A stretch of DNA of 64,000 nucleotides, taken from assembly GCA_949825065.1 (NCBI GenBank), contig OX463849.1, positions 35,173,199 to 35,237,198 of the forward strand. The letters run 5' to 3'. Position 1 is the stretch's first letter. Each line of letters starts with the position of its first letter. This DNA is from Odontocerum albicorne. Taxonomy: Eukaryota > Arthropoda > Insecta > Trichoptera > Odontoceridae. Below, one piece after another: positions 1,707-62,668 of this stretch. Position numbers and translations under genes: made by a program. The notes beneath the pieces are model-generated. The model was not told the origin of the DNA. It did no database searches and saw nothing but the letters and a program-made list of their open reading frames with translations.

Positions 1707-2247
1707 ATGTGGCACATTCAATTCGATCATTCTAAAGTTGAGCCGTATGAACCACAAAAAATAATGGGTATACGTATAATGATGTGTGCGTGTGGTATAC
1801 TCGTACTTAAGATTCTGGTATCACCAGAAAGGAGATCGGAGCTCCACGGTCAGAAAGAAAATTTCATTTTTCACGCAGATACTTCAACACTCCAAAGATG
1901 GTTGGCAAAACGTGGATATCTCACCCTTGTCCTATTTTGATCTAATGGAGTCGAAAACGATATTCACGTACCGTAGTATTTCGAACACTTGCTACGAGTT
2001 CCGAACCTACTGCAGTGATTATAAACCCGAAGTTTTGATCAATGGAGGTGAAAACAATTCCTGGCTACGTTCTTCAATATGCCCACATCACCAATGCTGG
2101 TATATGGAGAGGGTTCATACAAATGAAAAATTACTAGAAAAAATAAATGAAAAATTCACAATTCTGACGATTCATCCCCTATTCTCTCCAACAATCCCTC
2201 TCGTACGCTCTTTCCAAGACAGTCAACGCATTATCCAGGAACTGTAG
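1707..2247 (+). other. unassigned open frames
   Basis: Two overlapping plus-strand frames: 77 codons from 1707, and 153 codons from 1786 to 2247. I recognise no domain. The longer frame is rich in Cys, Tyr and Trp and a little GC-richer than its surroundings, so it could be an exon or a piece of an unrecognised transposon. A TACTCGTA 8-mer lies inside at 1798; removing its six inserted bases keeps the frame. There is no start context, splice evidence or homologue I can point to. Confidence 0.2.
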
Positions 2248-2589
2248 ATATTGTACCGGACGGGTACAAAGACTGCAGATAGGCACGTTGGTTGCCGCGT
2301 AGCGCTCAGAGAATCGAGGTAGCAAATTCCGTAGCGAAGATCCAGCAGAAGAAGAAGAAGAAGAGCAGGGAGAGATTCCTCTCAGGCAGTCGAAGTAGGG
2401 TAGCAGGTCTCAAAGTAAAAACACGGTAAAGTCGGTAGTACTGAGAATATATTTTGAGAAAATAATTGTCTATCACACCTACAAATATTGCCACATGCAA
2501 GTTCTTTCATCAATCACAAGGGGCGACTGTACACGTCCGATACAGATATGGTCTAACAATTGGTCTCCTTTCTGATAGCATAACCTCAA

Positions 2590-2770
2590 AGACACATCCG
2601 TGACGACCTCTGTGATCATTAAGATACCAATTGTTAAGATACCTTTCAAACTGGTAGTAGCGAATTTGATTCCCGATGGCTACAGTTTAGTTTCACAAAA
2701 AATTGGTCCATGGCAATAAAACTAACAGATTACACTGTATACAATGAAAGTGTATGTTAGGTACAAATCC
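2590..2770 (+). mobile_element. tRNA-derived SINE, degraded
   Basis: The head has GACCTCTGTGATC followed by a weak B box (TTTGATTCCCGATGGC). The body is shortened but keeps CCATGGCAATAAAACTA and the 3' motif TGTATACAATGAAAGTGTA that other copies carry. Confidence 0.6.
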
Positions 2771-2836
2771 GTTTACAAGTTTGAAACAGTGGGTACAGAA
2801 ATAATTTACACATTGTTACTAGAAACAGGACGAAAA

Positions 2837-2909
2837 TACTGTGTGGCCTAATTGAGAAGACGTCGGACTTCGGATTCGAAGTTTGCAGGTTCGAGTCCTG
2901 TCACGATCG
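2837..2909 (+). tRNA. tRNA-Arg(TCG)-like fossil
   Basis: The 73-nt block has a TGGCCTAATTG A box, an anticodon arm TCGGA-CTTCGGA-TTCGA that would present TCG, and a B box GGTTCGAGTCC. The anticodon and T stems can pair, with wobbles. The acceptor stem does not close (two mismatches), so this is probably a pseudogene or the head of a SINE rather than a working tRNA. The following 100 bases vaguely resemble the tail of the local SINE family. Confidence 0.55.
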
Positions 2910-3184
2910 ACACAATATGAATGTTTATCTTCCGATGCCTCCTAATTACTGGACGAGCTGATAGGTTGAAAAAACCCTTCATATTATATTTAACCCGTCA
3001 GGTAACATTTTATTCAATGAATGTAAAACATAATAAAAAATAAAATAAGTTATTTAGGTAAATTCATCATAATTTGTTTTCTTCATTTGTTACAGAATAC
3101 GCAGTGTATTTTGTAAGTGTTGACATAAATACAAACGTAAAACCTTATCTCTGAAACAAATCTGAAACGACGTGTGACAAAATT

Positions 3185-3325
3185 ACCCGCCCATACTATA
3201 GACAAAACTGCCTTAAACCTCACCCCCGTAACCCCATGGTGGGACTTGGCAGGCTCGGTCCTCCCCCTTGGTGAGAATCACAATGCTCAGCTTACCCCCC
3301 CATGTCCTCCCCCGAAGCATAAAAA
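3185..3325. other. GC-rich patch, unassigned
   Basis: C-runs (CACCCCC, TACCCCCCC, CTCCCCC) stand out against the AT-rich background. A similar motif (GAGAATCACAATGC versus GATAGTCACCATGC) occurs near 19400, so it may be a dispersed repeat. No coding potential is recognised. Confidence 0.3.
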
Positions 3326-3644
3326 CCTTCATTAACGATATATTTATGTCAATCATTACCATTTATGGTAACACCCAGCTCTGCACTGGCAACCGTCTTG
3401 TTCTTTATTATCTATAAAATAAAACATTTCTTGATTGTTGTACCAACCAAACGTACGATAATGCGAAAAAAAATCCTTATATGATATAGAAATTTGTTCT
3501 GTATAGCACAACTTGGTGGACTTATTAAAATGTGAAAATCATTTTCCACCAGCCACAAATATGTTTTAAAGGCATTAAATGCAATAACAGAATGCGCCTA
3601 TTTTTTACATTTTTAGGGTACCATCTGGACTTGGTTGAAAGACA

Positions 3645-3865
3645 GGAATGACGATCTCTGTGATCTAGTTGGTAAGACACTTGTCGTTTAAATCGGGAGT
3701 TTCGGTTTCGATCTCGATTAGAACCCATTTTTAATAAATAAAAATTCCTATCTGGTATTCACTTAAGGCATAATTTTGTTGGTTGAAGAAATTACCACAT
3801 GTCGATTAACTCTAGCTAGGTTGTAGTATATTTAAGAAAATTATAATGAATACAATATGCGTCTT
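3645..3865 (+). mobile_element. tRNA-derived SINE
   Basis: The tRNA-like head GATCTAGTTGGTAAGACAC is followed by a decayed B box, then AGAACCCA and a T/A-rich linker. The body CTGGTATTCACTTAAGGC and the GTTGGTTGAAGAAATTACC block match the other copies. Confidence 0.7.
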
Positions 3866-4224
3866 ACTATCTAAGCTACGGAGGCCGTCACGTTTATCGA
3901 CCAGCTCTGGGTTCCAGATTCAGTGTATGGATAAATGATTGCTTTTAGGATAGGATAGAAATATGGTAGTTGTATGTCTTCAGATGATGAAATAGTCACG
4001 AGGGATGTTTAATTGCGTGTAGCGAAAGGAAATAAGGTCAATGATATCCTTAAACATACATACTCGAACTGGACAGTCCTGTTTAGTGCTTCCTGAAATA
4101 ATCACCCTGTTGCTTTTATCACCTGGTGACTCCATCAGATAGGTGTTCGCCATCCGTTTGTTTTGCCATTCACACATCTCGCTAGAATTGACCAATAAAA
4201 TATGTCATCTTATCCACGCGTTAT

Positions 4225-4584
4225 GTGTCCGAAGTAGGAGAAGCTTACCTAATAAGAAACAGGCTTAAAGTCTTAGAAAGAAAGAAGTATTTGTTATTGA
4301 CATTCTTATTTTGTATCTTACTCAACCATCTTGTATTTCGCCTATATAGTAGTTGCATAATAATTACAGTTGAAGCAATAAAATTAAGAATACGAGTATA
4401 TATTCATTTCACGTGCAATCATGTCGAAAAACAAATGAAAAAAATACAATTTAAAACATTCGTTACTGAAAACCAAAACTCTTTTACCCCTATTTACAAC
4501 GTCCGTGGCATAGTAAGAAAAACTCTTGACTTCCACCCAGGGGTTTCGGATTCAAATCCCGTTGCTACCCGAAAAAAGGGTTAG
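4225..4584 (+). other. 119-codon open frame, probably chance
   Basis: The frame runs into a tRNA-like SINE head at its 3' end (4497-4580) and contains the dispersed 8-mer TACGAGTA at 4391. The composition is hydrophobic and basic, as expected of translated AT-rich DNA. No domain is recognised. Confidence 0.15.
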
Positions 4585-4600
4585 TCTAGCAAAAGAGCTT
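4497..4600 (+). mobile_element. second tRNA-headed SINE type (head)
   Basis: Head GTCCGTGGCATAGTAAG, then CTTGACTTCCACCC and a B box GGATTCAAATCCC, followed by TACCCGAAAAAA. The same TACCCGAAAAAA junction occurs at 16317-16378, and the same head occurs inverted at 24340-24415. This type therefore differs from the commoner SINE in both head and linker. Confidence 0.6.
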
Positions 4601-5780
4601 GTCTGATAACAATACTTATACGCGTAAGGCGTGTGCGAGTATTATTGCCTCTTAACGTTCAGAGTAGTATTGGCAGCACAGGTGATGATGAACCGTAATT
4701 TCTGTGCTTTCTGAATGGGGTGTAAGCCTGAAGATTCGATTAATGGAGTTAAGAACAATATTGTCTCTCGTCTACGCTCTATATGTATCATATATTCAAA
4801 CCACTAAATACTCGTAATATACTCGCATGTTATAGAGCACCATAACATATGAATGAAAGAACGAATATCAAGAAAACAACTGAAAGGAACATAGTAAAAT
4901 ATATTTGTTACTGAAAAATAAAACACCCTTCAGCCACTATCGCTTTCAGGTTAAATATTGTATAAAAATAGTACGTCCAACTTCGAATAGGGTACCAATT
5001 TTCCAGAACAGTGGATAAACGAAATCAAAGCCAATTACAATTTAAGTCCGTTTTAAGCATCAAGTTAGCCTGCCTATAAGGTTACTGAATTCCTTAATAA
5101 TGGTAACTGGAAGAATAAAATACCTACTTTAGAGAGTATGGTGGGGCCCACAACACCTGAGGCTCTGTTTTAAGTGGCCTTTATTTTATAACCCCGAGGT
5201 CTGAACCACCCTTGCCCAAATTGTCAGTTCAAAGCGAAGATTCAAACCTATGTGAATCGAACCCATTGTCGCAAATGAACCGAAGAATATAATTATATCA
5301 GCAATAAGCCCGCCAGATGTACCATATTTAATCATGTACACAAAATAATTAAAATAAATAAATATATTGTCAATTTCACATCACTCATTTAGAATACTAC
5401 TTTTAAAAACATTTTGGAATAATCGATAAATTTTTAATTGATTGATTAATTAATATGAAAATACATTTTATTTTTCTAATTAAAATGATGATTGATTAAT
5501 TACAGTAGTCAAAAATTTGACTAGTTATTCCTTAAGATTTCATTTTCAAGAAATATTTTGAAATTTCACCAATACTTATCTTATAAAAGCATATTAAATG
5601 CATCCATTAGGTTTGGCTATAGGTATTGTGAATAGTTTGAGGAAATCACTAAAATTATATACAAATATTTTATGAATAGGCTAACCTCTCGTTCTGTATC
5701 CTGGAGAAACACAAAGTAACTTCTGATAAGGATAAATGATTGATAAGTTTGAGACAATTCAAAAACTAATTTTTATTCGT
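4601..5780. other. no gene recognised
   Basis: AT-rich, with only short frames. One TACTCGTA 8-mer lies at 4809. Confidence 0.5.
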
Positions 5781-6075
5781 TTCACGTGCACAAACCATGT
5801 CATAGTGCTCACTTTATCTTACTCAAACCATCTGCCTTAAACTCACGTTCATCCCTAATCACTTAATTCCGTATTTTGAGATTCAATTTCACCCCATGTG
5901 CTCGTCTAAGTACTCGTACATGCGTTTATACACAATTTATTCAACTCTTTGCTGTATTTTTCTACGTTCGCGTTTCACTCCCATACATCAATGCTGGTAC
6001 TAAAATATTGTGGTGGACTATCATCTTAAAAGATTTTGATACTGATCGGTTCGGGTATATATGTTTTAGTAGAAA
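5780..6075 (-). mobile_element. RTE-like LINE fragment
   Basis: The minus strand, read with stops, follows the conserved C-terminal part of the local LINE protein: the segments around LVPALMYGSE, NAVEMRALRIIHGV and ADGLSKI can be traced. It ends near the block corresponding to YSNRTVSK. At 5911 a six-base insertion (the 8-mer TACTCGTA) interrupts the MRAL segment relative to every other copy. It is 5'-truncated, dead and pseudogenic. Confidence 0.75.
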
Positions 6076-8501: not shown

Positions 8502-11500
8502 AACATTTTCTTTTCTTACTATATATTTTTGATGCCTAAAATCACACACAAAAACGAAATATATTTTTTTCAGAAATATGTATATGCAATCATATAAATC
8601 CCCTTTTCACAGACGCAGTGAAGTGTTTATTCAAGGATAAACCAATCCAGTGAATCCAGCCTCCCTCGGAGTGCAGCAATGGACCTCCACATCCATAGTG
8701 CTACCTCTGATGATGAAGCAAAACATCGGGAAATGCAATAGACGTGTTATCCGACTGATGCAATTAGCCAGTACTACTAAGCTGCATTGCTGGACGAAGT
8801 CACCCCCTATATCGGATGATTCATTCAAGCTAGGCAATGAGGAAGCGTGAAAACGTGATTGAATAAGTATTGTTTTTGATACTTTGAATATTTATAAACT
8901 GAGTTTGTCGCTAACAAAAGTATACGGCTTATAAAATGCTTGAGTTTTTCTAAACCAAGCACATTGAATTGTTCATCCAGACACGTGCGGTTTATAGAAG
9001 CAATTTAAACGTTGCTTGCCTATAAATGAAAAATAAAAAAGAAGACTTACTTAATATTCGTCACGTCTTCAAAACTTTAAAATTGGATTTTTTAAAGCCA
9101 CTGGTATTTTAAATAAAATTAAACAAGATCTGGACACAGATGGGCGTTGAATTGAGATATAAGTAGTGTAAATAAGGGATCTATGTATAAATAAATCCAA
9201 CAATATATCACATTGAAACCATGATTTAATAAAATGAAAATGAACAAGATGGAAGTGTCATGTGTGGACGGGCCACTGCGTGGTGGCTAGTCACCTTTAC
9301 AGAATAGGTATTGTAGAGGATACTGGCCGATTATCCACAATACCCATGAGGATGCTAGTCTAGTCTCGATGATGAAACTATAGATCAAATATTTTTCGGT
9401 TATCCTTAACGGGACTGTTTTGATTCACTAAACGCTATATCTTTGCCGCGTCCAATAAATGTGGCCACTTATAGATCGATCGTTAATTTTTTAAAGCTTA
9501 GCCTGTGAAATATTAAATTGTCTAAAATTGACATTTTTAAATTTATTTTACTATTAATATAAATTGTCTCATAATTTTATAGATACTTTGATATGGTGGC
9601 ACAAATCATCCTAGAGTGGGTGAATTGTCTATTAAAAAAATGGCGCGCTGTCATTGCTGTGGCCAGTAGTTCACTAATTAAAGTCAGTGGCGCTAGGTTC
9701 GCTTTTTCTTATCATTCAACCAATCGCTGTATCTACAATTATGCATTACTTTTGAACTCTTTTACATTTGTGTGCATACACACTTTTGCACACATATGAA
9801 TTAGGAAAACAAACAAATACTCTTAGTATTCTTTTTTCAAATACAAGCAATCATTACAGACACTTCGCCGATAACTTCATGTCAGTACGACGTAGTTAAA
9901 ACGCGCGCTATCAGATTTTGGCGCTGTCCGATTTGTAAACACGGCTATTGAATTTGTTTTTTTTAGGTTATATATTTTTTATAAATAAATTATATTTGTT
10001 ATGCAGAATAACCATGACTTTTATGAACTAATAGTCAATTTCGTGATCATTTATAGTCTGAACTATTATGTTTCTTATCGTTTTTTGTAACTGAAAATGA
10101 TTTTGTGGTTATAAATGATTATAAGTTGTGTGATTCTCAAACCTTTTACAGAAATAGATAATTTCCTTATTCCTGTTTTTAATGTTTGAAAACTTTGACT
10201 GCATTGTCTTGGCATATTCCTAGTTAAATAGCAAATAATTTTATTAAGAGGGTATGATTTCCTTTGACAAGACAATAGTGCGTATTCAATGCAATTGCTT
10301 AGTATCCTTTATTTACTCGTAGTTATATTTTTAGTTACTCGTATTACTGTGCGAAAGTAGTGAAATTGAATTGTGTTTCATGAGGAGAACAGTTCAACGA
10401 AGTTTCAGTTGTAAAAGCATTAAAGTAAAAACTGGCATAATTAATACTAGTTACGCCATGTATTCTAATAAGTTAAGACTGAAAAAAATGTAACTACGAG
10501 AATTATGTATGTACATACATTGATACGTTGATAACTGTATGGGACACCTGTTTTAGATTTTATCTCGACCTTTATTGCTTTCCTATGGTAGCATCTGAAC
10601 GCACGCCACTGTTATTATATTATATCACAAATATTGTATGTCGTATTAATGTAGATATCTAGCCAACGATAAGAAGTACTTTTACAGGTGACAAATGTCT
10701 GTTGAATAATCCTTGGTATTCAAGAGTCATTCTACTTGATCGAGGATACAACACATTTGCACATATCATTTAATTTGAATGTATTTCGTTACACTTACAA
10801 CCCGCCTTTTATAGATTAAAAATCAAATCAACATTGAGGGGATATTTTAGTACAAAACATCGCTACAAATGTCATATTTTGGTGTTAGTGGGGCTATCCC
10901 TTTTGAATAAGGCCTCGAATATTGACATCTTCAACATTAACGAAAATGTTATTATTGGAGTATTTTTAACTTTCTTAGTAATGGGAGTTAGTTGTTTCGG
11001 ATAAACTAATATTTCTTTTTCACTATTTTTTTTCTAACAGCTGTGTATAATATATCTTTAAGCTTTGCATATTATTTTTCTTTCTTATTGCTATAAATAA
11101 TTTATATTTAAGCTTTGTATGTTATTGGGTTTAACTTGTGTATTTAACTTTATAAAATAATGGCATTTGATTGAGGTGTCGAAACAAGTCGAGCATGAAA
11201 ACAATATAAGTTTTCAACTAATACAAAACCTTTATTTCAAATTAATATTATTCCAAATAAGCATCTAACCCAAAAATACAATGAAATTGTATAAATATTT
11301 GCTTAATGAAATCAAAGCAAACAGTTTAACCCCACAGCATGATGTTATGGTGGAGTGGACGGGCACTTCAACAGGCATAATACCATGTCAATACGTTATC
11401 GAAATGTAACTCTATTTACAATCTATCAATGTTTGGTTAGTGGGATCAAAGCATTAGCATAAAAAGTATTACTTATGCATTATACCACTAGAGTATTCAG

Positions 11501-13526: not shown

Positions 13527-14150
13527 TCACACTTTTGCTGGTATATAATGTAATATACTGTTCAAGAATTTAGATTTTACTAATATGTATGTATATTCCA
13601 AACTATTTGAAATGAGGGCGATCTCCAGCCCGATGGACCAAGTTAAAAACACGAAAGAGTCTTCTAAGACAACAGCGCTCAGAAATGTACATAAAAATAT
13701 TGATTCAATGTTGAGTTCAAAGAGATCATAACCCCCAATCAATAAGATGCTGTCTTCAGAGATAAATAAATTCTTGTAACTGTAAACAAATAAGTTGTAA
13801 AGAACCAAAAGGATTTTAATATACTCGTACCTTTTTGAATAACCGCTAACTCTAAAACAGTGGATGGCATTTGTACATAAAGCGATAGAATTCCCCAGTG
13901 GGGCATGTGAATCACCTTTCAATAAATCGAACCGGGTCCTGTAGAGAAATGCAAATAACCGACTGAATGTGCCGTACCTCTCGCTACGAGCTGTTTGCCC
14001 AAGAGATTGAATCGGTTTGAAAGTAACCATTAAATGTGCAACCACCGTCATGCATCCAAACCATGAATATACTCGTAGCATATGATATACTGTATGCATA
14101 GATAGATTGTAAACATATCGTCGTGAGGTGCCTTTTGGAATCGATTTCAT
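13527..14150 (-). other. 207-codon open frame, unassigned
   Basis: This is the longest single frame in the window. It has three or four hydrophobic stretches in its C-terminal half and no catalytic or fold motif that I recognise. Two TACTCGTA 8-mers (13822, 14070) lie inside; each contributes two codons. There is no evidence for splicing, polyadenylation or homologues in the window. It could be a chance frame, a piece of an unrecognised transposon or a real exon. Confidence 0.25.
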
Positions 14151-15900: not shown

Positions 15901-16316
15901 TTATAATTTGCCGACCTCTTATTTTAGGTATTTGGTAAAAAAAAAACACGCCGAAATATTCTTTTCCGCAAAAAAGTGTTACTAATAAAAATATATTTAT
16001 CTAAAATTATTGGTATTTTAAAAAATCTGTTGTACGACATTATTCTAGTTTGCATTTTTAGTACTTCTCTTTCAAGTGTTGTTATGCAAATAACTAACGG
16101 GAGTACCAAGAGAAAGGGAAATTAGAAGGAAATGCGTAAAAGCCTCTACTGTACCCCGGAAACATCACCGGGAATTTCACACATCGTTCCGGAAGTGGAA
16201 AGAGGTTATCTACTCGAACTGTAAGCACTACATGCAGGTGGCGCTATTCAAATAAGATATTTTCCAAGCTACCTCAAACTTTGTCCCAGAACACATACAT
16301 ATCATATATACACATT

Positions 16317-16378
16317 AATTGATTTCCACTCGGGGGGTTCGCATTCGAATCCCGACGATACCCGAAAAAATAAATCAG
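16317..16378 (+). mobile_element. second SINE type, partial head
   Basis: GATTTCCACTCGGGGG, the B-box-like GCATTCGAATCCCG and TACCCGAAAAAATAAA repeat the arrangement at 4497-4600. Confidence 0.55.
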
Positions 16379-16659
16379 TTTGATAATGTTGATCTACTCG
16401 TAGTAGCAATACAGTCATGCGCTAATCGTTAGCAAGTGTTTATGCCCCTTCATGCGCGGTACCATTGTCAATCCGCACCCTGATAAACTGCTAGTTGTAT
16501 TCCAGTCATGCTCTTAATTTTTTCCGTATCACCAATTATTTAATAATAATATGTCAGAGGGTAACATACAAATAAATAAAATCGTTCTTTTGTTACTTAT
16601 AACGATTTGCTCTAATGTTTATATGATACATTCGTTTCTAAACAGTTCAATTAATCGTT

Positions 16660-19111: not shown

Positions 19112-20864
19112 TTCCCAGTTACGTTTGTTTGTTGTCGCTGCTGTCTATACTCTACGGTCATCAGTCTACAGTCCCTCAGATGGTGGACAAGTAAAATATA
19201 AAGAGCTAAGAAAGCTCATGAAGCCTTGCCGCTCTACGTCTTTGCACCTTCTTTACCGTCTTCTCCAGCATTGTCACCTCATATTCACCGTCTTCACCAT
19301 CGTCGCTACACTGAGGCCCCCGGGATGAGCAGGACGCCTAATCAGAACTGCGCCACCAGGGCCGCTGACATGAGCGTTTGAGCGCCCTTGGAGATAGTCA
19401 CCATGCCCAACTATGGTTGATACAAATGAAAAGCAGAGATCCAGAGAGCGTTAAAATTATTGATAAATTCATACACAAAATACTTAACAAAAGTATACAT
19501 AGATAGATAACAGATACGACACAACAGTGAAAAAGGTATTCCCTCAAATCACTGACAAAAGATCAACGGTGCAGAAAAATGCACATGGTTTTAAAAATTC
19601 AATATAAGCCATAGAACTTGTTTCGTTTCGTCGTTAAAATAAATCACTTTCTCAGTTCACCCTGCCTACTGTGTTTTACATGCGACCATCTAGTACCTGC
19701 CTAAGAGAAATCTCTTCACCCTGCTACCTTTTCACCGATCTACGCCTCTGAACGTGAACTGAATTATCCAAGCATTGCGCAGCAGCCATCCACCTATGTT
19801 ACAGTTCTTTGTACCGGTGCCGTACATATATAATACTATCTAAGAAGCATAATTCCGTAACTATTATTATTATTATTCATACGATTATTATTTATGTTTC
19901 ATGATTAATATTATATATCTCATGGAATATATGGCTCACCTTTAATGCACTAAACACAAACAATAACGATAAAGAAATAAATCGTTACCAAAGCTCATAA
20001 AATTGCAGTTAATTAATGCGAAGGTGGCAATAAATTCATTTGACAGACAGTAATTGGACATAATGACAATTAGCACAGTGGATTAACGTTAAATTGACAT
20101 TCGATACTGAAAAGAAGATGTTTGCGATTAAAATGTTATTTGATCAGTTTACAGAATCCAACAGTAAAACGAATATAACCGCGTTGAAATATATTTGCAA
20201 AAGCTAGTTAAAATTTATATTATTATCTTACATAAATGGATACATGCGAAAATTACCCACACACTAAATTTATAACTGAACATTAACTTTCTTACAATCA
20301 TAACGCTGCCATAATTTATTTATTTATTTCATTCACAGTACAGACTTACGCCAATTACATGAGAATTTTATGTACAAATAGTATTTTTTTTTAATATTTT
20401 TATCCTGGCAGAATTATTGCTATAAACCAGTTTCTTCGTATCAACCAGCTTACCGCCCTATTAACCAGCTTGCCTTACTCGTAAAATTGTTTTTAATATC
20501 TCAGATTTTATATAATATTTAAAAAATCTAGTAAAACACTTATATTATCTTGAAATAATAATGATTGGATTATAGGAAAAGAATTTGTTCAAAGATAAAG
20601 AAGGGAGATAAATGAAAAATTGGGATGAAAGGGTATTATGAGTTATGTTATATAATTTCAATTATTTCTTGAACGTGTAAACAATGGTGTACATCTGCTA
20701 ACTCTTGGAATTTAGTTCTATAACCATGCTCAAAACAGATAGAATGTTGATAGAAACTTTTTTGTATGTAAACATAAAAATTGCTTCAAAGCAAGAAGTT
20801 TTTAAGATTATATTTTGTTATATAAAGTAAAACAACAAAAATATTATGCTGGTATCGATTTATA
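19112..20864. other. no gene recognised
   Basis: The interval holds a GC-richer patch at about 19300-19420 (with CCCCCGGGATGAGCAGGACG) and otherwise AT-rich DNA. The frame at 19098-19328 has no domain. TACTCGTA lies at 20476. Confidence 0.4.
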
Positions 20865-22079: not shown

Positions 22080-22440
22080 ATTAAAATTTATGGTTATACG
22101 AGTATATACTCAACACAACACTCCACCTAAAACCAAATTTGAAACTCTCACATGCCAAAAGGACTATAGAGGTTTCTTCGTAGTCAGTCTTCCCTTAGTA
22201 AGTTTTCTGCGGTTTTCTTACAAAATATGTTTTTCTTAATGTATACATATGCGAAGAAGTTCATAATCTAATGGCTGCAGTTACCGTCTTTCTATCGTTA
22301 TATTCAAATTGTGTTTTTTGTATTGTAACATGTTTAACCTGTCAATAAAAGTAGTTTAAGTCCCGAGTTGGGCCACTGTCAATGAGAGTCTGATCTCTAA
22401 ACGGCGCTATATAAATTGTATTTTTATTATTATTAAAGCA
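22080..22440 (+). repeat. family C repeat
   Basis: It carries CTCTCACATGCCAAAAGG, TAGTAAGTTTTCTGCGGTTT, ATGCGAAGAAGTTC and a CTGCAGTTACCGTCTTTC block. It ends in GATCTCTAAACGGCGC plus TATATAAATTG and an ATT-rich tail. TACGAGTA lies at 22097. Confidence 0.7.
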
Positions 22441-23005: not shown

Positions 23006-23007
23006 TA

Positions 23008-23949
23008 CGAGGCATATCCAGAAAGTAAGTGTACTGAATATTTGTAGGTTACAATTTTTTTTATTTAAACAAAAAAATTACGTGGTTACCGTAGTACATA
23101 TGTAAGCTATTTTTCGACATAGTCGCCATTCCTCTCAATGCAGGTGGTGAAGCGGGGTATCAACTTTTTGATGCCTTCCTCGAAGTAGTTTCCCGCCAAC
23201 CCCTCCGTCCACTTCTCCACCTCCTCCTTTACCTCCTCGTCGGTTGAAAACCTTTTTCCACCCATGTGCAGCTTTAGGGATGTAAAGAGATAGTAATCTG
23301 AAGGTGCTAGGCCAGGGGAATGCGCGGGATGGTTCAGGACATCCCATTTCAACGAGGCGAGCAGTTCCTTTGTGGCGTCTGGCATTGTCGTGCAGCAGGC
23401 AGACACCCTTTGTCAGCATGCCTCTCCTCTTGTTCTGAATCGCCTTCCGCAATTTTTTTAGGGTCTCACAGTATCTTGCAGAGTTGATGGTCTCTCCTTG
23501 AGGCATATATTCAATTAAAATTATGCCTTGACAGTCCCAAAACACGGATGCCATGATTTTCTTGGCTGAAATTGTGGTTCTGAACTTTTTGGCGGAGGGT
23601 GAAGAGGTGTGACGCCACTGTTGAGACTGCCTTTTGGTTTCAGGCGTGTAGTGTGTAACCCAAGTTTCATCTCCAGTAACGATGGAGCGGAGAAATTCAT
23701 CTCCATGGAGTTTGCAGCGCCTCAAAAACTCTTGCCCGGCATTATTTATTTCGCACTTGGCGGGAGATTGGATTGACATTTTTCACAAAACGTGTTGTCG
23801 CGTCGACACTTCTCAACGTACTGACCTCGAACCGGTCTCGTTGCGGAGGGGAAGGGTCAGGCTACACGGAAGTGTAGCCAACATGTCGAAAATAAAATCC
23901 ATCCGGTTGTGAGAGCCTCAGCACATACTTACTTTCTGGATACGCCTAG
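23008..23949 (-). mobile_element. shortened mariner-family transposon
   Basis: It has terminal inverted repeats of about 24 bases: left CGAGGCATATCCAGAAAG, right (reverse complement) CTAGGCGTATCCAGAAAG. TA dinucleotides at 23006-23007 and 23950-23951 fit the mariner target duplication. The length, 942 bp, is below the usual 1.3 kb because the DNA-binding N-terminal half of the transposase is missing. It has a transposase fragment on the minus strand (separate entry). It is not mobile by itself. Confidence 0.92.
23107..23779 (-). pseudogene. mariner transposase, N-truncated and frameshifted
   Basis: Mariner transposases bind their terminal repeats through an N-terminal paired-type domain and cut DNA with a DD34D catalytic triad. 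Seen here: VTGDETW (first Asp, about 23670) and LHDNARRH (second Asp, about 23390) in the frame 23135-23779. SPGLAPSDYYLF (third Asp, about 23300) lies in the frame 23107-23406. The switch of frame falls just after the second Asp, where the usual spacing is also shortened, so a small deletion is the likely cause. The conserved SPD of the last motif is SPG. The residues before KCEINNAGQ, roughly the first 130 to 150 of a normal transposase, are absent. All three catalytic Asp codons survive, but no single intact frame does. Confidence 0.9.
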
Positions 23950-24339
23950 TATATATAAACACACTCATCCTTGCTCTTCATCGACCAAAAATATCATAGC
24001 ATCTACACAAATAAAAACATTGTCTCGACAGCATAAATTGAAATCTCAATTATGCATAAAAATATCAATAGTATTTTTTTCTAGTATTGAAACCTTCAAC
24101 ATATCCGATTTATTGATTCAGACATATTGAAAAAGTGATCGGGAGACTTTATTGTCTTACCAACGGGTGGCACTAGAACCACTGGAGAAGGGACAAATCC
24201 GCAGTTCGTCATTGCACGTTTTGGTTACACTACCATACGTAAAGTTACAACTCTCGCACACGTACTTGACGCGTGCCATTATTATTACTTGTCGAAATCG
24301 TTTGCCAAACTGAGGCCCTTTTTTATTTTATTTTTATAC

Positions 24340-27757: not shown

Positions 27758-29018
27758 CCAGGTCTGTAAATATGAAACCGGAATTTGCGCATAGATGGCT
27801 CTAGTTGTCAATGTAGTGACGGCCAAACCGCGTCATTGGCGCCTTTTTCTTGTGTTTACATTTGTCAAAGACTTTTGACTCACAACAATAAAAGTTTAAT
27901 ACAACTACATATATTTTAATAGCGTTGAATATGTCGGTTTTTGTGCCTGAAAACTACGATTTGCGAACAGCATTGATTTTCTGTTATTATTTGAAGAAAA
28001 CTGCTGCAAAACCGCATCGAATGCTTGTCGAAGCTTACGGTGAGCATGCTCTTGGTAAATCACAGTGCTTTGAGTGGTTTAAAAAATTCAAAAGTGGTGA
28101 TTTTGACGTGAGAAACGAAGAACGTGGAAGACCACCGAGAAAGTTTGAAGACGCCGAATCGCAAGCATTGTTGGATGAGGATGACGCTCAAACGCAACAA
28201 CAACTCGCGGATCAATTAAATGTGACACGAGAAACCGTCTCCGTACGTTTGAAAGCCTTGGGAAAGATCCAGAAGGTGGGTAAATGGGTTCCACATGAAC
28301 TGAATGAAAGACAGCAGGAAAAGCGAAAAACCACCTGCGAAATGCTGCTCGCCAGGTACAAAAGAAAATAATTGCTCCATCGAATTGTGACTGGCGATGA
28401 AAAATGGATATACTCGTATTTCGAGTATCCTAAGCGTAAAAGATCATGGGTAACTCCAAGCAAACCAGCGACATCGACAACAAGGCCAAATCGCTATGGA
28501 CGGAAGACAATGCTCTGTAATTGTTGGGATCAGAAGGGTGTTATCTATTGTGAGCTGCTAAAATCTGGCAAAACCGTTAATGCTGAACCCTACCGACAAC
28601 AAATGATGGATTTGAACCAAGCATTGCGTGAAAAACGACCAGAATATCAAAAGAGGCAACACAAAGTGATTTTGCTTCATGATAATGCACCATCGCACAC
28701 AGCAAAACCGGTCAAGGAAACGATTGAGGCGTTTATTTGGCACTACTTATTATAGCACTACTTATTTGCATCGATGGGACACGCACTTGCTGAGCAGCGC
28801 TTCACTTCTTACGAAAATGTACGAAAATGGCTCGATGACTGGTTTGCCTCAAAAGAGCAACAGTTTCTTTGGTGTGGCATCCACAAATTGCCAGAGAGAT
28901 GGGGAAAATGTGTAGCTAGCGATGGGCAATACTTTGAATAAAATATTTTTTACCATTTTCATACAATAAATGTGTATTCTCTATAAAAAAAATCCGGTAT
29001 TATATTTACAGACCTATG
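27758..29018 (+). mobile_element. mariner element, rosa-like, nested
   Basis: The terminal repeats share AGGTCTGTAAATAT-A-ACCGGA. TA is present at 27756-27757 and 29019-29020. The total of 1,261 bp is close to the 1.3 kb of complete mariners. The flanks are the two halves of one family C repeat, which fixes the insertion point. The transposase is in one orientation and broken (next entry). Confidence 0.95.
27931..28941 (+). pseudogene. mariner transposase with two stops and a lost third Asp
   Basis: One continuous frame of 336 codons from ATG (MSVFVPENY) to TAA, against about 345 in Mos1. Seen in order: helix-turn-helix region with CFEWFKKFKSG, a second HTH near LADQLNVTRETVSVRL, WVPHEL at residue 119, VTGDEKW (Asp 156, the same number as the catalytic D156 of Mos1) and LLHDNAPSHTA (Asp 251; Mos1 has 249). 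In-frame stops are at 28369-28371 and 28753-28755. Between EAF and ASMGHALAEQRF about 11 codons are gone, removing the SPDLAPSD motif with the third catalytic Asp; CACTACTTAT flanks the junction on both sides. The two-residue excess before Asp 251 is the TACTCGTA insertion at 28411. Rosa-subfamily similarity is from memory of the family. The element is inactive. Confidence 0.95.
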
Positions 29019-34638: not shown

Positions 34639-35216
34639 AAAAGTAATGCTGATGTGACGAGTAAGATGAAGGACACTCAGAGATAGTAGGCATGTAGAAC
34701 AAATCAATCATGAAAGTAATGCTGATATGACGAGTAAGATGGACACTCAGAGATAGTAGACATGTAGAACAAATCAATCTTGAAAGTAATGCTGATGTGA
34801 CGAGTAAGATGGACACTCAGAGATAGTAGACATGTAGAACAAATCAATCATGAAAGTAATGCTGATATTACGAGTAAGATGAAGGACACTCAGAGATAGT
34901 AGGCATGTAGAACAAATCAATCATGAAAGTAATGCTGATATGACGAGTAAGATGAAGGACACTCAGAGATAGTAGACATGTAGAACAAATCAATCATGAA
35001 AGTAATGCTGATATGACGAGTAAGATGAAGGACACTCAGAGATAGTAGACATGTAGAACAAATCAATCATGAAAGTAATACTGATGTGACGAGTAAGATG
35101 AAGGACACTCAGAGATAGTAGACATGTAGAACAAATCAATCATGAAAGTAATACTGATGTGACGAGTAAGATGAAGGACACTCAGAGATAGTAGACATGT
35201 AGAACAAATCAATCAT
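34639..35216. repeat. 73-bp (70-bp variant) minisatellite, eight copies, in LINE
   Basis: The unit corresponds to the LINE segment encoding DVLSKMK-STLR...HVEQINHE, with landmarks GACGAGTAAGATGAAGGACA and CATGTAGAACAAATCAATC. The period is 73, but units 2 and 3 lack three bases. The array arose by duplication of a stretch of dead coding DNA. Confidence 0.95.
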
Positions 35217-35238
35217 GAAAGACTAACAAAACAATATA

Positions 35239-37779: not shown

Positions 37780-38215
37780 TTCATCTTCTTTCCTTTGCCT
37801 TTTTCCATACATTTGGGGTCGGCTGCTTGGGGTATTTTCCTCCATCTCTCTCGATCTGGTAAATCACTCGTTGATAGTCCAAATCTCGTCATGTACTCCT
37901 CCACTTTCTTATATAGGCTTCCTGGATCTTTCTCTGCGTTTATTTGGGAGTTCCCAATTCGTGAATGTCTTTAGCGTATACCCCTAATCCCACCGTTGCA
38001 CATACCCACACCAACGTAGTTGTACTTCCCGGACTTTATCTAATATTAGCGCTATTCTAATTGTGCTATGAATTCGTTTATTTTGTATATTTTCAAAACT
38101 AGTGACGCCCAGTGACCACTGTATCATACGTACGAGTATCTCCGCAACGTGAACCAATTGTTCCTCTTTTTTCTTTAAGACCAACACTCGGCTCCATGTA
38201 GCACAGAGATCCTGA
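37780..38215 (-). pseudogene. second LINE (RTE-type) C-terminus
   Basis: The frame 37984-38187 reads EEQLVHVAEI, an extra LV, then RMIQWSLGVTSFENIQNKRI and DKVREVQLRWCGYVQRWD. A related frame in this window (39897-40097) has SEMRMLKWSAGV, which shows that the canonical form lacks the two extra residues. Those six bases are the dispersed 8-mer TACGAGTA at 38131. The remainder (37780-37980) has lost its frame. Confidence 0.75.
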
Positions 38216-38545: not shown

Positions 38546-38789
38546 GACACTGGGAAGAAGAATTATATTACATCATGTGTAATTTTTTAGTGATAATGTT
38601 AAATATTTATAATAGGTTAGTTTGTCGAATTTATATTTGTTTGGGTCGGGGTGTAGGAGCAATCACAATGATTTTTTTACATTTTGACGGACTGAATTTG
38701 ATTTATACTTACCTAGCTTTATATTTATTCTGAATTTATTTACGAGTATATATTGCAATAATTTTTGTAAATACATCATTTGTGAAAAA

Positions 38790-38895: not shown

Positions 38896-39514
38896 TGAAT
38901 TTTTTTTTTTTAATTTTGAATATGTTGATATTTCATATCTTGTTTTACAAATATTATTGAACATACTCGTAAATGTGGTTTATTTCTTTCATAAAAAAAT
39001 ATGCTCCCTAATATTATGTTATATTTTGTTGCCTGACTAGCCCACCTACAGTATTAGCAGAGAAGACCAAGGTATGAGTGAATGTGATGGAATGCAAGTA
39101 GCCTGGACGAGTGGACATGTAGTGCTAAATAATTAGTATTAAAATAATTAGTTGTGAGAATTGTTATCTAGTTATATGTTAGTATGTAAGTGCTTACTGT
39201 TTCAAAGAAATTAAGCATGAAGATTATTAAATATAAAATTACACGTAGGAAATTAAAATTAAGTTAGTTCATAGTAGTTATATATAAATTAGATTAGTTC
39301 TTAAGATATAAATTTGTTTGCGTTACAATTTTCTTTATTAAATAAAAAATATATATTGTGTAACCTCGTGGTCGCATCGTTTTTTGAAGTAATAAATACA
39401 GGTTTTCAGTATAATTGACAGATGTCAATAAATCCTCCCATTGTCATTATAAACAGATAATAGTTGACAACATATTATGACAAAACTAATCATTATAACA
39501 TCACAGGGCTGAAA
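38896..39514. other. no gene recognised
   Basis: AT-rich; TACTCGTA at 38964. Confidence 0.45.
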
Positions 39515-42867: not shown

Positions 42868-43206
42868 CAGTGCTCCGCAACCGGTGTGCCGTGGCACACT
42901 GGTGTGCCGTGAGCCGGATACAGGTGTGCCGCGGTCAAATTCAATGTACGAGTATTTGACATTTTACAATTTTTCATTATGTATTTAATACACAATAACT
43001 GGTGCCAACTGTTGAAAACTGCGTAGTGTGCTTTGTACACACCATGGCCGCACCAAATTAGTCATAGACAAAGAAAAATGACCCTTATGCGCGTCGCTGA
43101 AGACTCATGCCTAATTTAATACCTATATATTTTAGCTTTTGGTGTGCCGCGGAATTCTAGGAAGAATTTTGGTGTGTCGTAGGTGAGAAAAGGTTGCAGA
43201 GCACTG
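42868..43206. mobile_element. non-autonomous hAT element (MITE)
   Basis: 339 bp. The terminal inverted repeats are CAGTGCTC(C/T)GCAACC. An exact 8-bp target duplication, CTATACAC, lies at 42860-42867 and 43207-43214. Internal GGTGTGCCG(T/C)GG motifs occur near both ends, as in many hAT MITEs. It codes for nothing; it would depend on a transposase elsewhere. TACGAGTA lies inside at 42947. Confidence 0.96.
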
Positions 43207-43690: not shown

Positions 43691-43907
43691 CATTTATTAT
43701 TTGTATTTATTCAAGTCTTTTGCACATTACAGATTTCTCTAATTCGTACTATGAACAAATACGAGTATATCAACAAGTATAAAGATCGTATAAAAAACAA
43801 AAATAAAAAAATTAAGACATTTGATCAAATTTATAACAAAACTGTATATGAATAGTAAGAAAAAAATATATGAAATGTTATAATTAACATTAAAAAATTT
43901 AATATTT

Positions 43908-44578: not shown

Positions 44579-44829
44579 AACATATAAAAAAAATCCCGTA
44601 CGAGTATATGTGTATGTAGGCATAAACAATTTAAAAATGTGATTATTCTACCTACTAGCATTTCGAAATACAGGTTGATTCGGCATAAAGGTTGGTAGAA
44701 CAATGTATGGGTGCGTTGCCTTAGATAATTATCCGCAACATACAAATCAAGACTGACTATTCAGGACGGATGGGTAACTAGATTACCCCTTAGCAAACAA
44801 AAAAGTAGACACCTAATCGAAGAGTTCTT

Positions 44830-48350: not shown

Positions 48351-48761
48351 TTCGATACAATAAATATGATTTCCTTGTTATCAGATTACATTCTTTTAAA
48401 AACCCGATAAAAATCATTTATTTTACTACAATATAATAAATATTTAATAAAAAACATTATAAACTTAAAAGTATCGTACCGTTCCTACTGCGAAATAGCA
48501 CATACCTGTAACAAATAAAACAGAAAGTTATTAATTTGTTGCACTTATATACTCGTATACGAAAATAATGATATTCTAAATTAATGATATGAAAACCACG
48601 TTAATTTAACTTTCACAAAGACTTTTGCGAGTATACTCATTTCCTACTTTACTGATGAGCGTAAGAAATCTGTTGTGAAAAGAAACTGATGCTTTTCCCT
48701 CGCTGTTTATCTTGACAGAGAAACCTTCATCGTTCTAAATATACATTTTTTGCACATATTG

Positions 48762-50010: not shown

Positions 50011-50109
50011 TGGTACTTGGTCTTGGTATAATAGGCACATACTTTAATGTGCCCGATAATTACACTTGATGTATACCATATACTCGTATATAGAGCCATT
50101 TAGACTCCA

Positions 50110-50480
50110 GACTCTCATAAAGAGCGTAAAACTCGGAATTGAACCCACTCTTACTAACAAATTAAAAATATTACAAAAAAATAAGTCGAGTGGTGTAAGG
50201 GTAGGAAGGTGGCTGTGCCATTAGATTGAGAACCCCCGATATCTGGAAATGTTTAGTAAAACATACGAGTATATTGGTAAGAAACACACAGAAATCTTAC
50301 CAAGGGAAAACGAACAACAAAGAAAACTTCCTAGATCTTCCGATATGTGATTGTAACGCATTCGGGTTTCGGTGGATGTAGTCTAGGTGTGCAGTGTTCA
50401 TATTCATATAGTGCGAAGAATAACTCATACGGGTTTAGGTGGTTGTAGTGTACGTGTGCAGTGTCCATATTTATATAATG
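50110..50480 (-). repeat. family C repeat, long copy
   Basis: GAATTGAACCCACTCTTACT, AAGGGTAGGAAGGTGGCTG, TTGGTAAGAAACACACAG, ATCTTCCGATATGTGATTG and a partial 70-base duplication of the outer end (50365-50400 and 50430-50465). The 8-mer TACGAGTA at 50264 is an insertion relative to 27640. Confidence 0.75.
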
Positions 50481-51504: not shown

Positions 51505-52158
51505 CGTCTCGAGCCAATTGCCCACTCTCCCCACACAGAGTATCACTCTTGACATTCATGCGGAAAGAATACTACAGTACAAATTTAACACTTAAATGAA
51601 TTCTGTATTCTGATGAATTCTACAATCAGCTTTCTTTTACAGCTTAAAATACTATGGTTAAATATATAATATGAGTAGAATACTTGTACGTTTATATACG
51701 AGTAGATTAGAAATATATATTTTTACAATAAGATTATCATAGACAGTTAACATCTATAATTCGATAGACAATGCTTCTTGTTCAAGTATGATTGTTAGCC
51801 ATCTTGTAGATGGAAGACGGATTGATGCGCATTAATGTATTGTGTGAAAACTGTTGCACTTTAGCTAGCACAGTCCTAACTAGCCTATATAATTTACTTT
51901 GTTATTTTTTTTTAAACAATACTATGATTAGTAGGCTTTTGACGTATTTTTTATTCGAATTTCTCATTTTTCTTGCAGCATAGTGATATAAAACTCTTAT
52001 GTCGCCTAGATATGATTTAGTTCACAATTTGCGGATAGTTCTTTGAACGATCTATTGTCAATCACCTTCTCAGTGCGGACAAGGATAAAAATCTGAGAAC
52101 AAATAGAAATCTAATCGAAACTCTTCTGTACAAACTTCGGTGAAAGACATTCTTTGAA
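51505..52158. other. no gene recognised
   Basis: AT-rich; TACGAGTA at 51697. Confidence 0.45.
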
Positions 52159-54189: not shown

Positions 54190-55035
54190 GCACAACATAT
54201 TGAAGTATTTTTATATTTAAATCGAAGAAAAAGAGGACTTTAAAAAAGCCCTTTATTTTGAGTGATATTTTTTTACAAATTTCAATATAAATCGTTTTTA
54301 TGTGTGGAATATAAATCACATATTTTCACGTAGCTATAAGAAGGGATTATAATACTCGTATATGATATTTGACAAGAAGTTATGGCCAATACTGATATCG
54401 GGATTAAAGAAAAACACCGCAAAGACGACATTTGAAAGCTCTCCGTCAAACGTCCCAATAATCCCTCTCCATCAAACGAAGGCTACACAAGGCGGATATA
54501 TCGTACAATAATACAATCATACCTCTGTGGCGTGCACTTTGTGCTGTGTATAGGGCTGCACGGATGACCATTGTTAGTTTTTATCTATGGGATTTAAACG
54601 TCAAATTTTGAACCATAATTCGACAAAAGATTAACATAGAAAGAAATTAATCAAACACCAATGATCAGCAAATTTCTCGAATGAATTTAATACATATTGC
54701 AAAATATCATATTTTTAATGAAAAAAATATGCATTTTTTTTGTAAAAAGTTCCCTTATTATCATGTATTCCTCGAATTAATCTCTGAGATCATTCAGGCA
54801 TTTTTATAACTAAAATTATCTTTCAATATATTTTTTATTTCAACACCAGCATGACTGAGAGATTACTCTGTTTTCAGCTCTCTTATAAAAAATATTATTA
54901 CCAGATGAAATGTTAAACTAGACTGGAACCTTTTTCAATAAAATAAACATGTATCTTCAAACAATAATATTAGAGGAAAATAATGCGTGTAAGGATAACG
55001 AAGGGAAACAAAGAAAAATAAGAACAAAAGGGAAG
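54190..55035. other. no gene recognised
   Basis: AT-rich; TACTCGTA at 54353. Confidence 0.4.
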
Positions 55036-55344: not shown

Positions 55345-56375
55345 TACTCGTATTTTATAAAGTTTCGAATCATGATTTTTTTTATATTTTCTCTCGAACG
55401 GGATTAAGAATAGTACATATCTGATTACTCTTGGAAGTGTTTTCCACATTCAAGATGTGTATAATAAAATATATATTTCATTAAATGAATTATAAAAACG
55501 TTATATTTATATGTTTCGTTGCTTCTCAATATTCCTGTAACATGTCGCAATAATGGATACCCTACAAATCAAATCAAAATTCGACCAGCATATTGTCCAT
55601 TGCTTCTTACTTTTATCAAATGATGTTTCATAGTAAAAAAATACCCCACGTTTTGTATTTTGATATGTGGATTTAATACTTTAGAAAAACACGTAACTCG
55701 AATCATGCAGCCGCAGCTGATACAAGTGAAATATAAAACCCAATTTGCTTGCAAGGTTGTTTGTTAGCTTTACAGGCATGGGAGACACTTGTTAGGATTG
55801 GGAACAGATGAAGTGTCTCAAAGGGTGACAATCCATTATTAAAAGACGAGAAGAAAAGTTTATAAAATATTGTTTTAGGATTTAATTGTACAAAGGCACA
55901 ATCGACGGGTTTTTCTTGCATGGCAATCATTTCTAGCCAACAGAGCCGGACGTGGTATTTTGGCGCTTAAGGCACTTATTTGATAATGCCTCCCACCCAC
56001 CCCCCTATAAAGTAATTTTTTTTTCTAAAGACTCGAAAACGAGTAAAATTGTTGTTACATTTTCCGTTATTTTAAAATGGTAAATATCAAACATAGAATT
56101 TTATTTTTCAAGCTTTTAGGGTGGCAAAATTATCAAAATGTTTATCGAAATGTATTTTATTCGAAATCAAACATTCACTATAGAAATTCCAAAACTAGAT
56201 CTCAATATTTTTTGATTTTTTCTATAATATGTTAAACCTTTCTCATGATCTCAAATTATTTTAATTACTATAATATTCTTTTTATGCCTGCCGATTTTGA
56301 CACCTTTCTGATATCGCGCCTGGAGCTAGTGCCCCGGTTGATCCACACTTATATTGGTTCTGCAAACCAACCAAA
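55345..56375. other. no gene recognised
   Basis: The two short minus frames at 55569-55930 have no domain. TACTCGTA is at 55345. Confidence 0.4.
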
Positions 56376-56379: not shown

Positions 56380-56725
56380 GTTTTACTTCACACATACACT
56401 ACACTACACCTAAAGCCGAATGTGTTACTATCATATATCGGAAGTTCTTCAAAGGTTTATTTGAAGTCCGTCTTACCTTGGTAAGTGTATGCGGTTTTCT
56501 TACCAAATACGTTTTTCTGAATATATGCAGATGCGGTGAAGTACCAAATCTAATTACCGCAGTGACTACCTTCCAAACCTTACACTCAACTGATATATGT
56601 TTATTTATTAAGGTCTTAAATCTGTCACTAATAACGGGTTCGAATTCCGAGCTAGAGCGCTCGTGAGGAGGGCCAGCTTTCATAAAGGGTCTATACAAAT
56701 TGTTATTTTGTTATTATATTGCACA
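56380..56725 (+). repeat. family C repeat, most complete copy
   Basis: In order: AAAGCCGAATGTGTTACTAT, CATATATCGGAAG, TACCTTGGTAAGTGTATGCG, GTTTTCTTACCAAATACG, AGATGCGGTGAAGTACC, TTACCGCAGTGACTACC, ACTAATAACGGGTTCGAAT, TCCGAGCTAGAGCGC and a TATACAAATTGTTATTTTG end. The GGGTTCGAATTCC word resembles a pol III B box, but it lies near the 3' end. Confidence 0.75.
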
Positions 56726-56733
56726 GGTTGTGC

Positions 56734-57050
56734 CAATTGTTGGTGCATAGTCCACAATTGCTGGTGGATAGCTTACAATTGCTGGTGGATAGCTTACAAT
56801 TGCTGGTGCATAGCTTACAATTGCTGGTGGATAACTTACAATTGCTGGTGGATAGCTTACAATTGCTGATGAATAGTTTACAATTGCTGATGGATAGCTT
56901 ACAATTGCTGATGGATAGCTTACAATTGCTGGTGGATAGCTTACAATTGCTAGTGCATATCTTACAATTGCTGGTGGATAGCTTACAATTGCTGATGAAT
57001 AGCTTACAATTGCTGATGGATAGCTTACAATTGCTGGTAGATAGCTTACA
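56734..57050. repeat. 21-bp minisatellite, 15 copies
   Basis: Unit TACAATTGCTGGTGGATAGCT. Two variants (GATGAATAG, GGTGCATAG) recur at seven-unit spacing. The 127-codon frame through it (QLLVDSL repeats) is a read-through. Confidence 0.97.
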
Positions 57051-57284
57051 AAGTTTAAAGTTACAAAACGAGATAACAGTGAAATGTCAGAAAAGACGTT
57101 GAATCAAAATAGAAAATAAAGAATTGGAATGAAAACATATAAAACCTTTTTTTTAATATGACTAATAATTTGGAAAAGGTAAGGGATGGAGAACGAGTAT
57201 TTTAATGGGGAATAGAGAAAAACACACTGTATAATCGAACAATGATGTAATGATTTTTACATAGCTATAATTTGCAAATATACA

Positions 57285-57400: not shown

Positions 57401-57404
57401 TTTG

Positions 57405-58015: not shown

Positions 58016-58017
58016 AT

Positions 58018-58440: not shown

Positions 58441-58444
58441 TTAT

Positions 58445-60390: not shown

Positions 60391-60394
60391 GTAG

Positions 60395-61060: not shown

Positions 61061-61128
61061 TACATGTATCTTTTTGAGCTTTCCGAGTATTAGGTTTGTT
61101 GTAACTTATGCTCACTTTGAGTATTTTT

Positions 61129-61394
61129 GAGTCAATTATACCATCATGTTTTTTTGAGTCAATTATACTATCATGTTTTTTTGTGTCAATTATACCATCA
61201 TGTTTTTTTGTGTCAATTATACCATCATTTTTTTTTTTTGAGTCAATTATACCATCATGTTTTTTTGAGTCAATTATACCGTCATGTTTTTTTGAGTCAA
61301 TTATACCGTCATGTTTTTTTGAGTCAATTATACCGTCATGTTTTTTTGAGTCAATTATACCGTCATGTTTTTTTGAGTCAATTATACCGTCAGG
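61129..61394. repeat. 27-bp minisatellite, ten copies
   Basis: Unit TTTTTTTGAGTCAATTATAC plus C(A/G)TCATG. The first copies have CCATC and the later ones CCGTC. The open frames across it are read-throughs. Confidence 0.97.
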
Positions 61395-61624
61395 TTTTTT
61401 TATAAAAATTGTAGTTTAAAAGTCGTCTAATCTCAAAACTCATACATTAGTGCTGGTAATTTGTTTTTATATTTTAAACCACTTTGTTGAAGTAAATTGA
61501 CCAAACATGCCCTGCAATCTTCGTTCACAATTTCAACATAATAATTTATATAAGTATGTTTGCTGTATTTAAATAAATAAAACATACAAACTCAAATCAA
61601 AATATTGCAACTTTTAATCTATTG

Positions 61625-61815
61625 TTTCAGACCAGGCAGTACACTCACTCAACCTAAACTCTAATGCGTTACTTGTTACATATCGAAAGATCTACAAAAA
61701 AATGTATGTTAGTTCGTTTTCCTTTAGTAAGTTTTATGTGGTTTTCTTATCAAATATGTTTTTTTCTAAACATATGCCGATGCGGGGAAGTTTCTAATAT
61801 ATTGGGGTTAGATAC
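61625..61815 (+). repeat. family C repeat
   Basis: CTCTAATGCGTTACTTGTTA, TTTCCTTTAGTAAGTTTTA, TGTGGTTTTCTTATC and CATATGCCGATGCGGGGAAG. Confidence 0.7.
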
Positions 61816-61837
61816 TAACTTCCGATCTTTTTTTTTT

Positions 61838-61940
61838 TTTTACCTGGCGAGTGTATTGCCATGTGGCAATCTTTTCCAACCAACCAAAAAGATGTTTTTA
61901 TAGGCTTTAAGTGTTAACCAGACTGAAATCTTTACACTGA
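61838..61940 (-). mobile_element. SINE body
   Basis: TACCTGGCGAGTGTATTGCC, ACCAACCAAAAAGATG and TTAAGTGTTAACCAGACTG are the reverse of the SINE body. Confidence 0.8.
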
Positions 61941-61974
61941 ACTTAAATATATAACTCAACTTAAATATGGTACA

Positions 61975-62140
61975 TGTCCTCAGTGAGATACAGGAAAAAG
62001 CCTAGTTTACTGGGAACACGACAAATGAAAGGCAACAAACCCAGATCCATTAAAATGGTGTGTCCCAATTAAATTACCTTTAGTTTTTTTCGCAAATTGT
62101 GTATATTTCTTGTCACGTGTAAATAAAATAAAATATTTAT
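61975..62140 (+). repeat. 3' UTR piece of the CR1/Jockey-like LINE
   Basis: CTCAGTGAGATACAGGAAAA, GCCTAGTTTACTGGGAAC, AAACCCAGATCCATTAAAAT, TCGCAAATTGTGTATATTTC and a TAAATAAAATAAAA tail, collinear with 29640-29830. Confidence 0.85.
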
Positions 62141-62144
62141 TTTG

Positions 62145-62668
62145 CAATATTTTTAATGTCTTCAAAAGTGGATTCAACTCCCAAGTTAGAAAAAGGTCTT
62201 GAAAAGAATCTGCACTCTAAATGCATTGTATATTATTTTGTATGTTATTTTCTTAATTGTTCTGAATGTCTTAACTTGAAAAAATATCACTCTTTATATA
62301 ACAGAAGTGTAGCCAACCTGAAAAAAAGACTTTAAATTAAAAATATTTTTTCCATTATTTTTTTAAACAAAAACTTCGTAAATCGAGTTATTTTATTTAC
62401 TATGAAATCTAATAACGAAAATTAAGTTAATGAAAAAGGTTTCGGACAGTGGAAGGGAGTTTGAAAAATATAAAAGGAATAACCCCGATGCTGGGAACCC
62501 TAAGGGAGGTAGAGAGTATGTATGTCTGCATGTAGGACTAATGAGATAGTGATACACGGTTTCAAATTTCAAATATACTCGTACAAGTGATTTGTCCTTT
62601 ACATAGTTTTGCAGTAAATTTAACTTTCAAATACTCGTATGTACATACGTTTATTTAAATTGTTATTT
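62145..62668. other. no gene recognised
   Basis: AT-rich; TACTCGTA at 62576 and 62632. Confidence 0.4.

Follow-up and report, generated by a model that had tools for sequence, protein, structure and literature searches.

A 64-kb stretch of the Odontocerum albicorne genome (C17:35173199-35237198, hereafter the window; assembly of 1.287 Gb in 1,241 contigs) is scattered with copies of one 8-base word, TACTCGTA, read on either strand. These 8-mers are best explained as the excision footprints, or scars, of a resident cut-and-paste mariner of the Tc1/mariner superfamily, an explanation given a probability of about 0.9. The window contains 27 exact TACTCGTA/TACGAGTA sites, 17 of which read TACTCGTA and 10 TACGAGTA on the plus strand, whereas 100 dinucleotide shuffles gave a mean of 1.64 and a maximum of 5. 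No other window 8-mer containing G or C is as enriched (27 vs 2.1 under an order-3 Markov model). Among TA-NNNN-TA words, TATATATA alone exceeds it in enrichment, and the top-8 lists for other spacings (TA-N2-TA to TA-N7-TA) hold a sole comparable non-AT word, TACCTGAAGTA (10 vs 0.04), which is part of a tandem array at 43906-44575. The initial annotation had counted 26 copies; the enrichment is real, with site 34869 overlooked, and 24 of the 26 coordinates are correct, 38751 and 50091 being in fact 38741 and 50081. Its concern that other TA-NNNN-TA words might be equally frequent is not borne out for the other mixed words.

The enrichment extends over the whole assembly. Genome-wide, the word occurs 381,502 times, compared with 30,151 for the reversed-word control; the excess is about 351,000 or 0.27 per kb, a figure inflated by amplification in tandem arrays and repeats, so that fewer independent events lie behind it. 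Fourteen random 10-kb stretches contain 50 copies (0.36 per kb), and the word is present in 14 of 15 sampled parts when the window is counted as one part. Within C1:1-150000, the first 100 forward-strand sites listed fall in about 149 kb, approximately 4.5 times the genome average, and partly form evenly spaced arrays.

The decisive link between the word and a transposon comes from a single TA in a dispersed repeat, the shared target site TTAGGTAAATA|CATTACAT. Two mariner copies, L038 (C1:923386-924753) and L042 (C1:4006191-4007373), have the same repeat flanks and sit at this same TA. Judged by their distinguishable ends they are oppositely oriented, and therefore the TA was hit at least twice. 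The same repeat in L026 and L027 has a single TA and no insert, and empty single-TA copies were found for the target sites of both L038 and L051. The pattern TTAGGTAAATACNNGTACATTACAT, which detects only CNNG-shaped scars at the shared TA, matches 245 genome places and its control none; the scarred copies carry two TAs where the empty ones carry one. Thus, one TA is seen in all three states: occupied, empty, and scarred. A hand tally of the 100 matches listed gives 49 CGAG, 46 CTCG, 4 CTTG, and 1 CAAG, with none of the twelve remaining NN combinations. The CGAG and CTCG forms are approximately equal (p=0.84), and the five CTTG and CAAG variants are one transition away from the scar.

The resident mariner has the terminal repeat TA|CGAGGC(A/G)TATCCAGAAAGTAAG, and its copies sit at TA with a duplicated TA. 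The copy in the window runs from TA to TA on the minus strand (23006..23951) and is recognized by terminal inverted repeats (TIRs) with ends TACGAGGCATATCC and TACTAGGCGTATCC, by similar ends in the genome, and by a Transposase_1 domain (PF01359, 23135-23779, E=1.4e-24); its end sequences are TACGAGGCATATCCAGAAAGTAAG and TACTAGGCGTATCCAGAAAGTAAG. The end pattern TACKAGGCRTATCCAGAAAGTAAG with up to two mismatches finds 21,369 genome matches and none in the control, and therefore at least 10,684 mariner copies remain. Of the 100 ends among the matches listed, which come from a pattern admitting only G or T at the variable place, 89 start CGAG and 11 CTAG, and most continue CGAG|GC. Twenty mariner loci (L037-L056) were fetched and 40 ends were read with their flanks, 38 there and two in the window; 39 of them start with TA, which the search pattern contained with four substitutions allowed, and three start CTAT. 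The majority length of 19 aligned bodies is 958 bp, and the distance to the majority sequence is 1.5-3.4% for 13 bodies, 5.9% for one, and 9-13% for five. The sampled copies would be deletion derivatives, as suggested by the body length and by the longest frame of the window copy, in which no helix-turn-helix match was found. The CTAG-type word TACTAGTA is absent from the window (0 vs 1.1 expected) and from 204 kb (0 vs about 3 sites expected, or 6.3 counting both strands), as expected if CTAG-ended copies cannot excise. The initial annotation had offered two alternatives. The first, that a highly active transposon specific for TA left the footprints, is supported by the more than 10,000 mariner copies, their mostly TA|CGAG ends, and the TA found empty, occupied, and scarred. 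The second, a micro-insertion process not yet described, need not be invoked.

Comparison with homologues was carried out on 87 sites: the 27 in the window, the 50 in the random stretches, and 10 in one small locus. Homologues spanning the word were available for 15 sites, of which nine favour the empty form, five the filled form, and one (51697) is a tie; in the window, 18 of 27 sites had no sequence for comparison. In most testable cases, the alignments indicate that the word arises by insertion and not by substitution. The scar at 5911..5918 (plus strand) lies in an old repeat, and its 6 bp are absent in all six aligned copies (11 empty and 0 filled alignments). The scar at 50264..50271 (minus strand), also in a repeat, corresponds to a 7-bp gap (6+1) in four of four copies, with 8 empty and 0 filled alignments. 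A third case is found at protein level, in a reading frame, interrupted by one stop, for a transposase of Mos1-like mariner type (27931..28752, plus strand; PF17906, PF01359; Mos1 E=6e-55). The in-frame scar at 28411..28418 (plus strand) adds exactly two residues to this frame relative to solved Mos1 sequences. Outside the window, L030:547 is the cleanest of the nine, with five alignments shown and other registers lacking exactly six bases; its neighbourhood looks like a tandem array with a period of about 80 bp. At L026:1788, the six bases are absent in two of three copies, and at L029:5266 a net six bases are absent, spread over three pieces. The printed alignments of three further empty-favouring sites (L028:8282, L026:4002, and L036:5782) are poor and not clean, and two of the nine sit 10 bp apart with common homologues. 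The five filled-form sites comprise three in one tandem array, 34869 in a tandem unit, and 22097. An origin by substitution, which the initial annotation had named as the outcome that would speak against it, is thus disfavoured by nine of the 15 comparable sites, and four of the five contrary sites are in tandem arrays. It had counted four sites with six additional bases; three could be confirmed in the window, 5911 and 28411 cleanly and 50264 in the 6+1 form.

The scars and the mariner insertions make a similar target choice. The context ANNTANNT surrounds 14 of 26 window scars (34869 dropped) vs 13.9% of window TAs, and 27 of 73 scars in 204 kb vs 13.3% of TAs. Of the 89 CGAG mariner ends among the matches listed, 19 have TAT on the outer side of the TA (8/41 and 11/48, by cross-reading). 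The scars show it genome-wide in 20.2% and 16.3% of cases on the two sides (controls 1,295 and 787), whereas TAs in general have it in 4.5% of cases (sampled DNA) or 6.2% (window). For Sleeping Beauty, the identical target consensus ANNTANNT is given in the available part of PMC2756404. Other footprint forms are not enriched in the window, namely the three-base TACGATA, five-base footprints, TACGAGGTA, and 8-base double footprints. Mosaic products are likewise absent or rare there; besides the missing TACTAGTA, TACGCGTA occurs twice vs 0.4.

A proposed course of events would account for the two forms of the scar. On excision, the transposase would cut the non-transferred strand at each end four bases into the element, leaving both flanks with TACGAG as a 3' overhang. 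Annealing of the CGAG overhangs with each other would rely on the outer C:G pairs and leave the two inner positions mismatched. After the break is joined, repair or replication would fix either CGAG or CTCG. The product would be TA-CGAG-TA or TA-CTCG-TA, in either orientation; the four bases from the end of the element, together with the second TA, make up a net gain of 6 bp.

Several observations weigh against mariner excision as the origin of the word. Where mariner footprints have been measured, two or three bases usually remain, and a four-base footprint must therefore be assumed here. No complete transposase of this mariner turned up, although none was sought, and the sampled copies resemble deletion derivatives. 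Two window sites are not insertions, as can be understood from the one or two chance matches expected in the window: 22097..22104 (minus strand) is probably not a scar, since its homologues show no 6-bp gap and one copy has a 4-bp gap, and 34869..34876 (minus strand) is probably a substitution, as it belongs to a 73-bp tandem repeat in which the remaining units have GACGAGTA instead. At the shared TA, scars may have multiplied along with the repeat, which precludes a count of independent events there. The 19 mariner copies hold no scar, where 2.9 would be expected by TA content (P=0.06) and 5.4 by length. Moreover, the flanks of the scars are polar, which identical ends do not predict, with 24:5 in a sample of 73 sites (four of 77 being dropped, namely 34869 and repeats of one L029 array) and 11:2 in 71 sites. 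A second polarity measure gave 41:13 and then a non-significant 26:17 (p=0.22) in the 71 sites, and 13 further sites gave 2:1. In the whole genome, polarity is weak at 76,939 vs 62,174 (55:45); the samples deviate from this ratio (p=0.0002), and tandem arrays are a possible source of noise in the counts.

The timing and local distribution of the scars can be partly read from their sequence and spacing. In a coarse test, words one substitution away from the scar word were not in excess, either outside the tandem arrays of the window (41 vs 40.4) or in the 204 kb without masking (152 vs 149.7). Together with the scar-free mariner copies, this fits one fairly recent wave in which scars and surviving copies are similar in age; neither of the two observations is strong. 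Close scar pairs occur; the 204 kb contain four, at distances of 10-27 bp. Scars 6-27 bp apart or overlapping are found at L059, L086, L071, L082, and window 10314/10336, and L059 has a scar within a scar. Local hopping could explain such short-range clustering. In the window, gaps below 300 bp between scars are not significantly frequent (5 vs 3.1, P=0.19).

Three other origins of the word were weighed. Very improbable are abortive or one-ended mariner reactions, in which one end is nicked or joined at a TA and repair leaves four bases where a full copy never resided. About 33 excess word copies per two counted mariner ends would suit such events, as would the flank polarity in the two samples. 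However, the polarity is weak genome-wide, the orientations are almost equal at one fixed site (49:46 among the 100 matches listed), and that site is also occupied by full mariner copies. In addition, CTAG-ended copies have left no TACTAGTA in 204 kb, as if unable to excise. About as improbable is a Minos-type Tc1-like element that made the scars and has since been lost. Minos was proposed first because its TIR begins TACGAGCCCCAACC and a six-bp footprint is reported for it. The four terminal bases shared with the scar can be seen in a primer in the portion of PMC3680223 consulted, and the six-bp footprint in Drosophila in that of PMC3386967. Nevertheless, the Minos TIR start TACGAGCCCC is not enriched (266 in the genome vs 274 for the reversed control), the window has no good Minos-end match, and the resident mariner accounts for these four bases and has a target site in common with the scars.

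Minos was accordingly rejected as the source, the genome being without enrichment of the Minos TIR CGAGCCCC (266 vs 274). Scans of public collections for Minos ends returned 2 viral-contig and 12 genome-contig records, and the one that was read on, L001, does not continue as a Minos end. A spontaneous or replication-linked micro-insertion, or an assembly artefact, has hardly any probability as the maker of the word, even though 18 of the 27 window sites offer no homologue for comparison. The inserted bases are identical to the ends of a TA transposon present in high copy number, the preference of the scars for TAT is close to that of mariner, and the roughly equal scar forms at one occupied site already largely refute this origin.

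The remaining sites of the window are listed here by strand. On the plus strand, scars without a spanning homologue are located at 1798..1805 and 4809..4816. Further exact matches on this strand are 10314..10321, which is 22 bp from the next scar at 10336..10343, and 13822..13829, 14070..14077, 20476..20483, 38964..38971, 48550..48557, 50081..50088, 54353..54360, 55345..55352, 62576..62583, and 62632..62639. On the minus strand, the exact match at 4391..4398 has one weak empty match, and 51697..51704 is the exact match with tied empty and filled alignments. Other exact matches on this strand are 38131..38138, 38741..38748, 42947..42954, 43760..43767, and 44599..44606. The interval 38741-38971 was once considered as a pair of inverted ends. 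The exact match at 16395..16402 (plus strand) is a possible scar in a tRNA-like repeat, with a length difference of +3. A dispersed repeat with an apparent tRNA-type box occurs at window positions 4524-4701, 16310-16500, and 24181-24387, and a tRNA-Arg gene is predicted at 2837-2909. Short-period tandem arrays are numerous, including those at 34595-35294, 43889-44669, 56671-57111, and 61067-61455.

Mos1 and the resident mariner have the Transposase_1 family in common, and the target of Mos1 is TA, as here. Mos1 footprints are three bases long; such a footprint adds 5 bp and shifts the frame, whereas the scar described here adds 6 bp. The six added bases contain no stop in any of the three frames and keep the frame, and by the genetic code they read YE, TS, or RV in the CGAG form and YS, TR, or LV in the CTCG form. 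Among other members of the superfamily, footprints of 2-4 bp are given for Tc1/mariner elements in the accessible part of PMC7913693, and of 0-4 bp for Passer in that of PMC9976928. In all of these, terminal bases of the element stay between two TAs after end joining; the present case differs in the four bases left, the one dominant product, and a word that occurs several hundred thousand times in one genome. For Minos, the same TA-CGAG-TA or TA-CTCG-TA would be expected from its TIR, the letters being deduced and not spelled out in the portions of the literature available. The source here is instead a mariner, and the Minos TIR start is not enriched in the genome. Stowaway miniature inverted-repeat transposable elements in grasses similarly leave small insertions of TIR bases after mariner-type excision, and these are not described as a genome-wide dominant word in the available text of PMC4561436. 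The mechanism is already known; what appears to be new is the scale, together with a mariner whose footprint is seemingly four bases long and a scar that keeps the frame and brings no stop. In the accessible parts of the literature searched, no description of a single footprint accumulating throughout a genome was found, which is no proof of absence.

Tentatively, a mariner wave may have excised so often that its scars outnumber the surviving copies by about 30:1. Because a four-base stagger yields a 6-bp insertion without a stop in any frame, its excisions would act throughout the genome as a mutagen that inserts two codons and is largely tolerated, in contrast to three-base cutters, whose footprints shift the frame; abortive one-ended events may even account for some of the scars. 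Transposon activity is usually read from the copies that remain, whereas here the history of the departed copies could be followed through a fixed word. One assembly would thereby be enough to measure the rate and age of excision, local hopping, and the outcome of repair. As the scar consists of two codons without a stop, its effects on proteins would be testable across the gene set, for example in the two residues gained at 28411.

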